Assembly: GCA_000827325.1 (NCBI GenBank)
Contig: KN832877.1
Location: 1,054,001 to 1,118,000, forward strand
Reading direction: 5' to 3'
DNA length: 64,000 nt
Origin: Oidiodendron maius Zn
Lineage: Eukaryota; Ascomycota; Leotiomycetes; Myxotrichaceae
Part shown: in pieces, positions 46,238-64,000 of the stretch
Position numbering within the stretch: position 1 is the stretch's first letter
How the letters are laid out: each line of letters opens with the position of its first letter
The notes under the pieces: generated by a model
Database searches by the model: none
Told to the model about the DNA's origin: nothing
Seen by the model: the letters and a program-made list of their open reading frames with translations, nothing else
Position numbers and translations under genes: made by a program

Positions 46238-46615
46238 CCTCGAAAAGGATGATGTATAGTGTACTCACTCTGCCCGGAAAGGCAGAGGCGAGCGCGCCTG
46301 GCCGCGCCGCGACTGCGGTGCCATATACGGTACGAGCGCGACCGCAATAGCACGCGATCACCGGCCGGCGACTCTATGCGTGTGGCCTGCACTGGCCGTA
46401 CTCTGCGTACCTGTGGGTGGTCTCTCTCCCGCGTACAGACGATGGTACGGTACTTTCGATCCGATGCAAATGATTCCTGCGCAGCATACCATCCCACCGC
46501 ATGCCGTTTCCAGCGTGCGCGCGCACCTCGATGTCAGCCCGGCGCCCCCCAACAGACCAGACCAGACAGACCACCAGACAGACCAGACCGACCGGTACAG
46601 CCTTCAAGCCCCCCC

Positions 46616-46892
46616 NNNNNNNNNNNNNNNNNNNNNNNNNNNNNNNNNNNNNNNNNNNNNNNNNNNNNNNNNNNNNNNNNNNNNNNNNNNNNNNNNNNNN
46701 NNNNNNNNNNNNNNNNNNNNNNNNNNNNNNNNNNNNNNNNNNNNNNNNNNNNNNNNNNNNNNNNNNNNNNNNNNNNNNNNNNNNNNNNNNNNNNNNNNNN
46801 NNNNNNNNNNNNNNNNNNNNNNNNNNNNNNNNNNNNNNNNNNNNNNNNNNNNNNNNNNNNNNNNNNNNNNNNNNNNNNNNNNNNNNNNNNNN
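46616..46892. other. Assembly gap (277 N)
   Basis: A run of N is bordered by C homopolymers on both sides (CCCCCC before, CCCCCCCC after). Just before it lies a CAGACC-type imperfect tandem repeat (46551-46594). The gap probably hides poly-C or low-complexity sequence that assembly could not cross. ORFs crossing it are artefacts. Confidence 0.98.
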
Positions 46893-47040
46893 CCCCCCCC
46901 TTCCCCTCCCCTGGACCAGCCGCTGGGGTGCCCGCTGGAGATCCGTCCATGCCCCACTGCGATCCGCTGCGCCGTTGCCCGACTCAGGCTCCCTGTCGCG
47001 CGGCAGGGGAGCCCAGCTGAGAGCGAGATGCTGGGCAGCT

Positions 47041-56837: not shown

Positions 56838-57312
56838 TTGAATGCCACCATCCACGTAGTCGCCACTCCCTGGGACCATCCGGATGGACTATCCCTCCCC
56901 AACGCCCAGCGCGCCGAACTTGCTGCCCAGTACTACACCGACAATTCCGAGCCTGGTCCCGATCCCACCACAGACGATATATCCCTCTTCCTAATCGCCT
57001 ACAAGTCCTCTCAACCCGTGGTGTGTGGGGGACTCCGCGCCCTTCATGCCGATCCCGCAACCGGGCGCGCGCCTCTAGGTGATGCCAAGATCAAACGCAT
57101 GTTTGTAGTTCCTAACTTTCGACGGAAGCGTTGCTGGACTGGTTTTGAGGGAGTTAGAGCAGAGTGCGAGGGCGAGGGGCTGGAGAAGATTGGTACTGGA
57201 GACGGTGATGGGCCAGCCTGATGCAATTGCGTTTTATAGGAGAGAGGGGTATGAGGAGATGGAGAGGTTTGGAGGTTATGTGGGTAGTGACCATTCGGTT
57301 TGTTTGGGCTAA
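56838..57312 (+). pseudogene. GNAT N-acetyltransferase, frameshifted
   Basis: Two frames together spell one GNAT protein. From 56838 the first frame reads ATIHVVATPWDHPDG, AQRAELAAQYYTDNSEPG, CGGLRAL and IKRMFVVPNFR. It then drifts out of family (RKRCWTGFEG) and stops at 57221. The continuation is in the frame two bases on: GSVAGLVLRELEQSARARG, then LVLETVMGQPDAIAFYRREG, ending SVCLG at TAA 57310-57312. The break is near 57119-57128, exactly at the acetyl-CoA binding loop that should read R-x-x-G-x-[GA]. The 5' end is also abnormal: the first frame has no in-frame ATG, and the nearest ATG (56841) is one base out of phase. Two lesions argue for a pseudogene over a single sequencing error. Confidence 0.75.
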
Positions 57313-57599: not shown

Positions 57600-59799
57600 C
57601 TAGGAAGTGTCCACGCTCGAAAATCCCGAAGACCCAATGCTCTCTACCCGGATCCCCAGCCTCGTCATCTCCTTCGCATCGATAATGCACCGTCCGTCGA
57701 ACAGCCATTTCGGTTGGCGCATGCCGTGTGCGATGCGCGTCCAGTCGAGCTGTTCTTGGGGCTTATAGATTTTCATCACGGCGACAGGAACACTAGTCGT
57801 CTTCTCGATCTCGCAGTCGGGGCAGTCGGATGCACATACGGGTTCTGGATTAAAATGCTCCTCATCTGGGAAAGATTGCTGCTGTTTCACTTCTGTAGCG
57901 GGGGCTGGGAAGGGCTTGGACTGGGTTGCAGGCGCGGATGGCTTGGTGTTCCTGAACTCATCGAACTCAGTAACCACCAAGACGGCGTTCGAGGCCGCAC
58001 AGGCCTCGTATGCGTTGGTGTACACCTTGACAGCCCCACCGTCATCACCAAGCGCATTTCCAAATCCGCATAACGCACGGATCTCGCCCTTGATGACGAG
58101 GGGGTTACAGCATGGGTCAAAGATGGCGATTTCGCGGGGGTTCTCCTCTAGTAGCGTCTTGACGATCTCTAATGCGGGGGAGTCCCGGGTATCAGAAGTG
58201 TTCTTCTTGAAGGCGTAGCCTAAGATTGTGACCTTTTTATTCACCAGGGTGTTGTTTAGGCACTTGATGACTCTGCAAGTGAAGCGGTTTCTCTGGTACT
58301 CGTTCATGATGACTACCTGTCTCCAGAACTCGCCGACTTCTTTCAAGCCGAGGGACTCCGCAAGGTACACGAGACTGAGGACGTCCTTCTTGAAGCAGCT
58401 TCCTCCAAAGCCAATTCCGGCACGTAGGAATTTCTCGCCAATGCGAGTGTCGGTGCCGATGGAAGTAGCTACTTCTCTGATTTCGGCACCAGTGGCTTCG
58501 CAAATGGCGGAGATACTGTTGATGCTGCTCAGGCGTTGGGCAAGCATCGAATTGGCGACGAGCTTGGCGAGCTCGGACGAAAATAGATTGATGGTCAGAA
58601 TTTTTGATCGGTCGACCCACGCGGCGTAGACCTTGGCTAGGCTTTCCGCTGCGCTGCGTCCTTCAGGGGTAGATGCGGAGCCGATGATAACTCTGTCTGG
58701 GCGCAGGAGGTCTTGTACCGCGGTCCCGGCCGCGAGGAATTCAGGGTTTGACAGGATCTCGAAATGCGCACCTGGACGATGGGTTGCTATCTGTCCATAA
58801 GTTAGAATGAGTGTATGGAACATGGGAGACTAAAACACACCATGTCCTCGACCAATTCAGCAGTTCTGCACGGAACTGTGGACTTCTCCACAATTATGGC
58901 TCCCAATCTGGCATGCTGCACGACTTCAGCAGTAACTGCTTCAAAGGCCGTCATATCGGTTGCACTGCCCGCACCAGCTCCCCTCGATTTCGTAGGCGTG
59001 TTAACCGCAATGATGACAATGTCCGCGTCACTGATGCAGCGCGACACGTCCGTCGAGAAGAACAGGTTGGGCTGCTGAACAGGCTTCTTATCCTGCTTGG
59101 AGGCGGGCAGTCCGTCTCGCGACACACGAACCATCTCTCCCAGACCGGGCTCGTAGATGGGGGGATGTCTCGAGTTCCATCTTCGGATTCGGTTCTGGTC
59201 TTTGTCCACCACCGTGACTTTGATATGTGGATTTTTGAAGGCAATGACTGCGGCAGTCGGCCCTCCTATATCATTGTCAGCATTTTTATCTCCCTACAAT
59301 CTATATAATGGAGAAAGAAGATGCAGCGCGTGGAAATTGAAGGTGCAAGTCTGTCTGTCCACATACCAACATATCCCGCGCCCACGCAACATATATTTCT
59401 AATAGGGCCTGCGCGCAAGGTGCTATCAAGGTCGCTGTCGTTCTCCGACGTGGCGCTGGCGCCGCTGGTCTCCCCATCGGCGCCCGCATGCAGCACCGGG
59501 CTGGAGGACTGGCTTCTTTCAGGCGTCGTGGACATGGTGGAGACGTCCATTGAGGAGTCCCGCTCGGCGTCCGCAGCCGGCTGAGAAATGGAATTGGATT
59601 GGGGATTCATGGTCCCCGCCTCAAGGGAGGTTCTGTTGCATAGCGCGTCTGAGGCTGGGTTGGGGGGAAGGAGGAAGGCAAAGGTAGAAGGAGAGATTGT
59701 GCTTTCGTTTTCGGGCTCGCTGGAGATAGCACGGATCCTCAATAATCGGATCGAATCCCATGTGGCTTTAGCTTGTTGCTGGTCCGAGTTTGTGGCCAC
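57600..59799 (-). CDS. ugd1: UDP-glucose 6-dehydrogenase with long N-terminal extension
   Basis: The enzyme oxidises UDP-glucose to UDP-glucuronate with two NAD+ and supplies the precursor of glucuronate- and xylose-containing glycans. Exons are 59367-59799, 58841-59265 and 57600-58790, all in phase, giving 682 residues. The Rossmann motif is CCVGAGYVGGPTAAVIAF. It is followed by DKDQNRIRRWNS, YEPGLGE and FFSTDVSRCISDADI. The catalytic cysteine is in GIGFGGSCFKKDV (about residue 418). The C-terminal NAD/UDP domain has GYAFKKNTSDTRDSPAL and ends KWLFDGRCIIDAKEM. About 135 Ser/Glu-rich residues precede the first domain. The true start may be a later Met, for example MNPQSNSISQ. A low-complexity insertion of about 65 residues lies before the last helices. 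This gene is not universal in ascomycetes. Next to it are a sugar-nucleotide-type transporter and a glycosyltransferase. Confidence 0.94.
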
Positions 59800-60215
59800 G
59801 GTCCACTCTTTCTCCTGAATGCCAAGATTAGCAAAACAGGGTTGATGGCCGCGTAACCAACCCTACATACGTCAGCGGATCCTGCATCCCTGGGGCTGTA
59901 AATGAATTTTTAGAACTGGCGGAAGAGCTTGGTAAATTGCAATTCAGCTTTGGGGGCCGGAAAGCAGACAAGAATAGGTTTATCCGGCGAGAATAAATTT
60001 TTGTGGGCTGTATTTTCGCGCTGTAGAATGTCCCTTTCCTACCACGGTCATAAGTGATCCTCTCGTTTTACCTAAATGATATCAAACATACAGAAACAAA
60101 CACCTCCGTAGGTGCATTGCCACGTAAACCATAGCTACGGGGAGTTCAAACGCCGAGCCTCCGTCTACTATGTCTATCAATTCCCGCGTCCATACAGGCC
60201 GTTAAATTACTATAA
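59800..60215. other. Intergenic region upstream of UDP-glucose dehydrogenase
   Basis: These 416 nt lie between the transporter stop and the dehydrogenase start, both on the minus strand. No gene or clear promoter element was seen. Confidence 0.6.
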
Positions 60216-61481
60216 TTACTTCTTCCTGCTCTTCGAGTCTAATTCCGCCTTGCTGTACATCACGCAACCCGTCATAGCGAGTAGCATGCCGGCCCCGTTC
60301 CAGATGTCCACGGCGAAGTCGCCAAAGGTAAAGATGCCGAGCACAACGGTGAGGACCTGTTTCAGGTTGCCACAGACTGAGATGGCCAGCGCACCCGCAA
60401 GCTTATTGGTCTGGAAGGAGGAGACGTTGAGGAGGAAAGCCAGCAGGCCATTCCCAAGTAGGAAGATAATAGTAGCGAAGTTGGAGACGTTGCCTTCGCG
60501 GTGGGCCATTTTGTCCGCGAAGGCGGAGAGCTCGCCAGAGAGGATGGCGTAGAGGAGGGCTTGGATCGCTGCCAGGGGGGACATGCGAAGCAGGAGTTCA
60601 ATCGAAGGAAGCGCGAGCGTACCCGTCATGAGGCGGTTCGTGGTTACAGTCTGTAGAGGGAGACATAAGCATGTAGGTCAGAAACAAGGGTCTTGGGCAT
60701 CCTGCATGCTTACCTTTACTGCTGCAAGTACGACTCCTAGACAAGTGACAAGGAGTCCGAAAGTGGAGTATTTGTATTCTCCCATGGTCGTCAGACCGGC
60801 GCCCAGCACGATTGGCAGCAGCGAAATATAGGTGGACGTCGAGTATAACCGGGAGAACCAGATGCGGTAAATGCCCACCGTAAAGAGAGGCACCGTAGTG
60901 CGAATGATTTGAAAGAATGCCAGGCTGACGAGAGATCTATGTGACGTTAGTGAGTGTGCTTATTAGATTCCTCAGATGGAAGGGCGTACAGCGACAGATT
61001 GGACACGGCGATGTTCGCTGTGAATAGGACCGAAAATGCAGCTAGTATCGCATGCTCTTTTCGTCCCAAGTGCGAGAGCTTGAAGTAACCCAGCTTCAGC
61101 AGGACAGCAGTCCCAACTGAGGCGAAGGTCGCGTGCAAACTGGTCAACAGCCATGGAAACTTGAACTATATAGATTGAGGCATTAGTTCCTGATTGTAGA
61201 GCATGTACTCTTCCATGGAAGTCAATTCTCACCGATCCCAGCACCAGCTTGTTGTACAACGTGAGCATCAAGCTGAAGAAGAAGTACGTGCCGAGCCATA
61301 AGAATTTTATCGTGTTAGGCGTCTCGTACTCCAGCTCAATGTTCCGTTTCTCCCCCTGCCCATCTCTCGCCATAATTTCTGGCTCGTTGCCATCATGGTC
61401 GACGCGCTCGCCAGACTCCTCGTGCGGCAGCAGGGCGAAGTGCGATTCCTGGTGGTTGTCGTCATCACCCGGGCGCTTCAT
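60216..61481 (-). CDS. TPT/DMT-family nucleotide-sugar-type transporter
   Basis: Four exons join in phase: 61233-61481, 60990-61165, 60714-60936 and 60216-60650, giving 360 residues. A hydrophilic acidic N-terminus (MKRPGDDDNHQESHF) precedes about ten hydrophobic helices typical of triose-phosphate-translocator-like Golgi carriers: IKFLWLGTYFFFSLMLTLYN, FKFPWLLTSLHATFASVG, FFQIIRTTVPLFTVGIYRIW, GNLKQVLTVVLGIFTFGDF. It ends KSRKK, a basic tail that could act in ER/Golgi retrieval. The substrate cannot be read from sequence. UDP-glucuronate or UDP-xylose is suggested only by the adjacent dehydrogenase. The frame is open upstream to 61697, but the first sensible start is 61481. Confidence 0.88.
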
Positions 61482-62675
61482 CCTCGGGAGCCAATCGAGC
61501 TCGCAGGTCCCTTCTGGGTCGCGATCATGAAGAAGTCGGTGCAATACAAGGTCGGCGAGGCACACACAGCGAGTGGATGCGCGTGATGAGGGTTGTGGCA
61601 GCTGTAGTGAACGGATGCTCGTCTGTCTAGAGCGAGAGGGAAAGAGAGGGTGACACACGAAGATCGATCGGAGTGGAGATAACGAGCAGGAGATCAAGCC
61701 TCAGTGCCCCACGACGGTAAGGCGGATCCAACCCTGCTACGAGTCCCTGTCTATGGCGGGGCCGGCTAGGGAGAGGAGATTCCGGACAGAGGAGACGCGA
61801 TGGCAGAAGGACGTGGCCCTCATTTGCAGTCCTCGCGTTCGGCAATACTGGGCCGCCAAGGATACGACGGCGCCGAAAAAAACAGATGATGTGCACGCGT
61901 GTGGCCAGAATCGGCAGCGGAGGATATGAGCCGGAAGCACAGAAATTAATCGTCAAAGTGGGATTTGACGTCGGTGTCGTGGAATAAGGGGGAATCCAGC
62001 GCCAGAATAGGGGTTCCACATACTTGGCGTCATCACGTGCCCCTGTCGCATTACGCGTCGTCCGCTCTTCCTCCACGAAACTCTCCACTCGCTGGCCACT
62101 TGCTGTGTAGGGTTCGGAAGGCACATCCAATGACCTTATCGCCGGGAAAGAGAAGTGTCCTCTTGCTGCTGCTGTGCTCACGGGAGTGCGGCGCCGCGCA
62201 GGACGAGAGTGGCACGCTGCCAATGCCCAGAATCTTGGCCTCACTGACGATTCGTCTTCTGCTCACGCGAATGGATATTGCCCCCGGCAGGATTGGGGCT
62301 CAAACGAGGGCCGGTCCCTTGGCCGCTTCCTTGGCAGCCTCATTGTGGCACTGGCTACAGCACTATGTAGGACGTAAGTAACTGGGCATGTAACTGGGAG
62401 CGTAACTGGGGCCCGCCTACAACAGGAACCAGGGTGGTGGCGGTCAGCCAGGTTGAAACGGGATACCAGCCGCCCCGTGGCGTCGATCCAGCGTCCATGG
62501 GTATTCGCTTTTATCTGTGTGCCCTGTGCACTGGTCACTGGTAATAGCGCAGTAATAGTGCGTCGGCACCAGAGACAAAAGGCCCTCCAGATACTCCCGA
62601 CACTCTTGACACTCTTTACTCGTCGTGCTCTCTCGTTGCGCGATGCAAAGATAGTCCTCGGGTGTCGAAGGGACC
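61482..62675. promoter_or_regulatory. Divergent upstream region, transporter / glycosyltransferase
   Basis: These 1.2 kb lie between divergent starts and could coordinate the two genes. They contain a three-copy 12-bp tandem repeat (62378-62413). A minus-strand frame at 61627-62244 has no family likeness and overlaps the presumed leader. Confidence 0.55.
62378..62413. repeat. 12-bp tandem repeat, three copies
   Basis: Three head-to-tail units begin GTAACTGGG (62378, 62390 and 62402) and differ only in their last three bases. They lie about 260 nt before the glycosyltransferase start and could be a regulatory array or slippage. Confidence 0.75.
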
Positions 62676-64000
62676 ATGCTGTGGAATCGTCGGCATGTCG
62701 TTATCTTTGCCACGGTCTTCATAATCTCTTTCACCTTCCTGGCGGTCCAGCTGCACTCCCCTGCGACGGTGGTGAGTCTGGTCCTAGCTAGGGATACCAA
62801 AATTCCTTTGCGCGGGGGATCCCTCCTCCCTAGAATCAGGGCTGACCATCTGCAATATTAGACAAACATAATACAAACCGTAGCCAAGAGACGGACCTCC
62901 CAACTGCACCTCCTCATTCCCGCGAGCGCTCCCCATCTGCAGCTATGTCGTGCTGTCCTCTCCTCTCTCCTCTTGGGCTACCCCGTTCCCATCATCAGCG
63001 GGTGGCAGACAAAAGGCGACCTCGATGCGGCCGTCACCCATCTGGCGAAGGTGCGCAACATCATGCGGTACCTGGACGCCCTCCCCCCAGCCGCCGACGA
63101 CCACCTCGTTCTCATCATTGACGGTTACGATGTGGTTATGCACCTCCCGGCAGAGGTCATGATCCAGCGCTACTTTGACGTTACCGAAGCCGCCAATGCC
63201 AAGTTGGCAGAGCGCTTCGGGAAGATATATACAAAGGGCTTTCCAGGCGGCATGCATGAACAGCCTCGACAAACAATCCTTTTCGGCCCCGACAAGATCT
63301 GCTGGCCAGTAGACCAGAGGCGGCCAGCCTGCTGGGCAGTGCCAACAGACACGGGCATCCCCCGTGGGGCATTTGGTATGGACGATGGCGACATGCCTCA
63401 CAACCAACCTCGGTGGCTTAATTCTGGGACAATTATGGGGCCGGTGTCAGATATGAGGCAGTTCATCGCGGCGACGCTGGACCGCATCCGGACCAGCTAC
63501 GACCCGAACTACGAAAATAAGGAGTCCGACCAGATGTACATGGCCGACGTGTGGGGAGTCCAGGAGTACTACCGCTCCGTGAGGGAGATAAAGGCGAAGG
63601 GCCTGGCCCGCTTAGATGGGAAAGAACCTATCCCGAAAGGTGGACCATTCGACAAGTTCATTCCCACGCTCGCGCCACGCCAGAAGACAGAATATCATAT
63701 CACTATGGATTACTTGTCCCAGTTGTTCGGAACTCGGGCTGGTAATGAAGGCTTCCTTGACTTTCTTCGGTACAGCGGGCCTGGATTTTCCACTCTGGTG
63801 AAGCGCAACGTTAGTAGACGTAAGGGATTCATGCCCTATGAGATCAAGCTCCCGAGGGACGTAATAGATTCGCTCACCCGCGTCTTCAAATCTATCTCCA
63901 AGATACAGAAGCTCCCCGCCAAGCCCGCGGACATGATCGCCCGCCTGCGTCTCGGTACGAATCTTGTCACTCGCCAGGTCTACGCACTGTACCACTGCAC
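62676..64000 (+). CDS. Type II membrane glycosyltransferase, PLOD/procollagen-GT-like, cut by right edge
   Basis: Exon 1 (62676-62771) and exon 2 (62862 to the window end) join in phase 0, and the frame is open for over 410 residues. The N-terminus MLWNRRH is followed by one membrane helix (about residues 8-26), giving a Golgi type II topology. The catalytic domain shows LVLIIDGYDVVMHLPAE, an acidic D-x-x-D site after a hydrophobic strand, as in PLOD-like galactosyl/glucosyltransferase domains where it binds metal and sugar nucleotide. RWLNSGTIMGPVSDMRQFI is a typical acceptor/NSG-type motif of these folds, and SDQMYMADVW resembles the following DDQ element. The donor and acceptor are unknown. 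Its neighbours (a UDP-glucuronate-forming enzyme and a transporter) suggest work on a surface glycan. The 3' end lies outside the window. Confidence 0.82.

Follow-up and report, generated by a model that had tools for sequence, protein, structure and literature searches.

A dehydrogenase, a TPT-family carrier and a PLOD-type glycosyltransferase side by side in Oidiodendron maius Zn: a possible glycosylation neighbourhood

Many Eurotiomycetes and Sordariomycetes share a conserved two-gene pair, UGD-GT1, in which a UDP-glucose 6-dehydrogenase gene (UGD) is one partner; the UGD of A. fumigatus is essential for an acidic glycolipid (PMC4059230, cited from excerpts, as are the papers below). The capsule supply chain of Cryptococcus comprises Ugd1, Uut1, Uxs1 and Uxt1/2 (PMC5790919, PMC5773217, PMC6912366), and characterised PLOD-type relatives of the glycosyltransferase (GT) described here use UDP-glucose (PMC11838735). 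In the excerpted part of a kingdom survey, UDP-glucuronate (UDP-GlcA) was predicted in most Ascomycota lineages and in Eurotiomycetes other than Onygenales, but inconsistently in Dothideomycetes and Leotiomycetes, and UDP-xylose (UDP-Xyl) was predicted only sparsely (PMC8092308). The original prediction for the DNA analysed here had called UDP-GlcA metabolism in moulds patchy and poorly described; this holds for Dothideomycetes, Leotiomycetes and UDP-Xyl, but not for most Ascomycota nor for A. fumigatus with its reported glycolipid (PMC8092308, PMC4059230). No paper on a trio of UGD, TPT-family carrier and GT was among the matches listed in searches of the open-licence literature. The glycolipid of A. 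fumigatus UGD1 was reportedly the subject of Fontaine 2009.

The gene trio of the window

The window is a stretch of 64,000 nucleotides (C8:1054001-1118000) from a genome of 45.9 Mb in 58 contigs. A UGD, a TPT-family carrier gene and a GT gene adjoin one another in it; their frames are open and spliceable and all three are intact, with introns set by hand on GT..AG:

57600..59610, minus strand: UDP-glucose 6-dehydrogenase gene (UGD), exons 59610-59367, 59265-58841 and 58790-57600, 619 aa
60216..61481, minus strand: TPT-family carrier gene, probable nucleotide-sugar transporter, exons 61481-61233, 61165-60990, 60936-60714 and 60650-60216, 360 aa
61482..62675, no strand: intergenic region from which carrier and GT genes diverge, 1194 bp
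62676..64000 and on to 64871, plus strand: GT gene, marginally PLOD-type, with N-terminal membrane anchor, exons 62676-62771 and 62862-64871, 701 aa

The clustering claimed in the original prediction was recovered at the same coordinates, and the divergence of carrier and GT over about 1.2 kb was borne out by the measured gap of 1194 bp (61482-62675). The GT stop codon, at 64871, lies beyond the window end, and the sequence seen for the prediction had ended at 64000. CGGn(0-12)CCG sites were not in excess in the gap between carrier and GT (8 against a shuffled mean of 9.4), and with 1 site against a shuffled mean of 1.6 in the second intergenic region no sharing of sites was evident. A small ORF without Pfam match flanks the UGD on the side away from the carrier; at 56838-57310 a small ORF resembles a GNAT acetyltransferase by eye, and 56838-57221 was without Pfam match. 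Undetermined bases at about 46600-47000 are read as runs of X in the ORFs.

The window UGD carries all three dehydrogenase domains, namely the NAD-binding, central and UDP-binding domains (PF03721, PF00984 and PF03720; central domain E 1.8e-29), together with the motifs GAGYVG and GFGGSCFKKD, in which GFGGSCF around the catalytic Cys is intact. Its best PDB relatives were UDP-glucose 6-dehydrogenase chains (E 2.2e-135, query residues 70-503), the best being an entry that we take to be human UGDH. From its sequence the gene clearly encodes a UDP-glucose 6-dehydrogenase, as had been predicted, and one of eukaryote type.

The carrier was matched by PF03151 (TPT) over profile positions 6-291 of 291 (E 1.4e-32), i.e. 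over the full length of the domain, and a single PDB entry, 5y78, a putative hexose phosphate translocator, matched it below E 0.001. GNLKQ of the carrier aligns with NTIKR of 5y78, giving K-Q instead of K-R at a site where the Lys-Arg pair is presumably phosphate-binding; the strongest TPT gene of the genome has K-R there (by eye). Because the carrier is without the Lys-Arg pair of the solved phosphate translocator, it fits a nucleotide-sugar transporter, and its sequence makes it probably more like such a transporter than like a phosphate translocator; the prediction of a TPT-family carrier stood. Nucleotide-sugar transporters of the NST/TPT superfamily have about ten membrane helices, and five separate segments were found in the carrier by crude hydropathy at a strict threshold. 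Its other matches in the genome were weak (C10:633 kb, 29%; C19:342.6 kb, 24%). Further nucleotide-sugar-transporter genes are present, with 7 matches to PF08449 and 4 places for PF03151, and could themselves carry UDP-GlcA. Substrate is poorly predicted by homology among these transporters (PMC5773217, PMC5790919, excerpts), and the TPT domain also occurs in NST1 and NST2 of M. oryzae (excerpt of PMC10013753).

The GT has a hydrophobic segment at its N-terminus, in keeping with the type II membrane glycosyltransferase originally predicted, and a C-terminal tail of 193 aa rich in Pro, Glu and Lys; beyond the window end this tail is highly repetitive (K-P-E-P). Against a cut-off of 27, Pfam GT_PLOD scored 30.9 bits with the in-window frame and 27.0 bits with the whole of exon 2, no single stretch passing alone, so that assignment as PLOD-type is marginal on sequence grounds. 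The motifs DGYD (119), LNSG (218), SDQ (254) and HCTGEK (410) supply the DxxD, LNSG, DQ and His elements and fit, by eye, the sites of the mimiviral enzyme R699, namely D83/D86 for Mn binding and N138, D163/Q164, H216 and K222 for ligand contacts (PMC11838735, excerpt). Searched against PDB up to E 1, the GT gave one match only, to the tail (E 0.2), and a single-sequence model of exon 2, as far as it lies in the window, had a mean pLDDT of 37.5, too low to be of use. Protein search of the genome placed GT paralogues on C10 (65% identity; GT_PLOD 23.1 bits), C3 (29%; 40.2 bits, no match in PDB) and C4 (28%; no GT_PLOD match, and SDQ and His motifs absent in the unspliced frame). Relatives of the GT were not found in the genome-contig and viral-contig collections.

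The three genes may be neighbours by chance, with the UGD supplying a step in the cytosol or in lipid synthesis, the carrier moving another UDP-sugar and the GT acting as a UDP-glucose or UDP-galactose protein glycosyltransferase, an alternative to which we give a sizeable probability somewhat short of even. No UGD or carrier was found near the C10 paralogue (ORFs of at least 120 aa in C10:1495001-1513000, and genome family and protein searches), so the GT family has no need of the trio. The surroundings are also mixed, with dynein heavy chain (by eye), chitin synthase, MFS and amidohydrolase genes upstream and MFS, ABC and Rad60-SLD genes downstream. UDP-glucose donors likewise fit the GT family (PMC11838735, excerpt). 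What counts against chance comes from the other UGDs of the genome, treated below.

Three dehydrogenase loci and the UDP-xylose arm

In a search of the genome, the UGD central domain scored above cut-off in the window, at C8:1199177 and at C38:71309, and these three places were all that the search gave. In the contig and bacterial collections searched, relatives of the UGD were one contig of a viral collection (32% over a short stretch) and 17 bacterial loci. Eukaryote-like UGDs were seen in Nitrospinaceae and Prochlorococcus records, with at most 53% identity to the fungal exon.

C8:1198108-1200199: second UGD on C8, about 85 kb from the window UGD, its 5' neighbour being a GT4-type gene in divergent orientation (C8:1.195 Mb)
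C38:73302-74509, minus strand: UDP-xylose synthase gene (UXS), adjoining the C38 UGD, with a Caps_synth-type GT upstream

The window UGD is 52% identical to the second copy on C8, and both intron positions (compared by eye) are common to the two; the C38 UGD has one intron and is 42% identical to the window UGD. In a small tree of the three fungal UGDs and 10 of the 17 bacterial loci, the two C8 copies paired with weak support (80/58), and the C38 UGD was flagged as a long branch whose place is unsure. On sequence, the GT4-linked UGD is probably sister to the window copy. Another alternative, compatible with chance neighbours and in our view slightly less probable, is that the window UGD merely duplicates the glycolipid UGD, as a spare or for use under particular conditions, and is functionally untied to its neighbours. 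The identity and the common introns speak for such a copy, as does the weak tree pairing, but the two UGDs differ at 48% of aligned positions and yet both keep the catalytic motifs, which indicates an old and maintained duplicate.

The 5' neighbour is glycan-related in all three UGDs found, according to the ORF lists, being the carrier in the window, the GT4 at C8:1.195 Mb and the UXS on C38; this count is a small sample, picked after the fact and unscored, and with that limit it argues against chance neighbours. One such pair, UGD-GT1, has moreover been published as conserved (PMC4059230, excerpt).

The original prediction had read the trio as a surface-glycan locus, with synthesis, transport and assembly steps for a glycan of GlcA and xylose, and gene order and likely membrane topology fit such a path. 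A search for UXS downstream of 64000 had been proposed as a check; none was found there in 18 kb (ORFs of at least 100 aa; 0 of the 27 genome matches to PF16363), and the GT is PLOD-like. The gene sits instead on C38, where UGD, UXS and a Caps_synth-type GT lie in a row, all on the minus strand (C38:70580-76849). The four best PDB matches of this UXS were UDP-glucuronate decarboxylase chains (E 3e-66 to 2e-65), and in tblastn it had high identity to its own copy only, the next best being 28%, with 20 of the 27 PF16363 places covered. The window trio is not the UDP-xylose locus of the fungus, xylose supply being encoded on C38, and a GlcA/xylose locus in the window is accordingly very improbable. 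Of the original interpretation, the identity of the UGD, the NST-like carrier and the anchored GT were retained and the xylose arm was dropped.

Upstream of the row on C38 are a 2OG oxygenase and a Zn-cluster-like ORF (by eye); ABC-transporter-like ORFs (by eye) also lie near it, and ketoacyl-synthase fragments were seen at C38:50.7-51.6 kb, 19 kb away. The region is possibly a glycosylated-metabolite cluster.

Proposed role of the trio

We propose that the trio forms a small neighbourhood of glycosylation genes with a duplicated UDP-glucose dehydrogenase as its basis, and consider the chances of this about evenly balanced. The window UGD would make UDP-glucuronate in the cytosol, as its family and motifs strongly suggest; at the Golgi or ER membrane the TPT-family carrier would most likely act as a UDP-sugar exchanger; and in the lumen the PLOD-type GT may glycosylate a protein that is secreted or goes to the wall. 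Candidate substrates for carrier and GT are UDP-GlcA, or else UDP-glucose or UDP-galactose, and a pathway shared by the three genes is plausible. At C19:339895-343083 a gene resembling 4,6-dehydratases (by eye of the UDP-rhamnose type) was seen with a weak TPT-like match about 2 kb off on the other strand (E 8e-4), and this pair was counted in favour of a glycosylation neighbourhood. A second 4,6-dehydratase-like gene lies at C20:567193-568169 beside a reductase-like ORF (UDP-rhamnose pathway, by eye).

A bolder version would have three separate UDP-glucuronate modules, each UGD with a dedicated partner: the GT4 for glycolipid, the UXS and capsule-type GT on C38, and in the window the carrier with the PLOD-type GT glucuronosylating secreted proteins. 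We consider it unlikely, and know of no PLOD-type enzyme with protein glucuronosylation activity. Until now, UGD in moulds had been connected with a glycolipid; should the three genes form a unit, they would provide, for a mould, both a specific candidate for UDP-GlcA transport and an acceptor enzyme in the lumen. With three UGD loci in one genome, a clean test is offered of whether every duplicate of a nucleotide-sugar enzyme serves its own glycan.

Comparison with known systems

Like the capsule supply chain of Cryptococcus, the window has a UGD and a member of the NST/TPT superfamily; it differs in that neither UXS nor a capsule-type GT was seen at the locus, the UXS that a GlcA/xylose capsule-type cluster would contain not having been seen to 18 kb downstream. 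With PLOD and R699 collagen glucosyltransferases the GT has in common a weak GT_PLOD match and DxxD, LNSG, DQ and H..G.K-like motifs, but it is fungal, has a membrane anchor and a Pro/Glu/Lys tail, and no lysyl hydroxylase domain was found by Pfam. Where the UGD-GT1 cluster has its GT-group-1 gene, the window UGD is accompanied by a TPT carrier and a PLOD-type GT; a UGD beside a GT-group-1 gene is found not there but at C8:1.195-1.200 Mb. This second pair on C8 matches the published UGD-GT1 pair, and we infer orthology from the neighbour gene rather than from a tree. In both loci, as in the published cluster, a glycan gene adjoins a fungal UGD, and C8:1198108-1200199, with its UGD and GT4, has that very arrangement.
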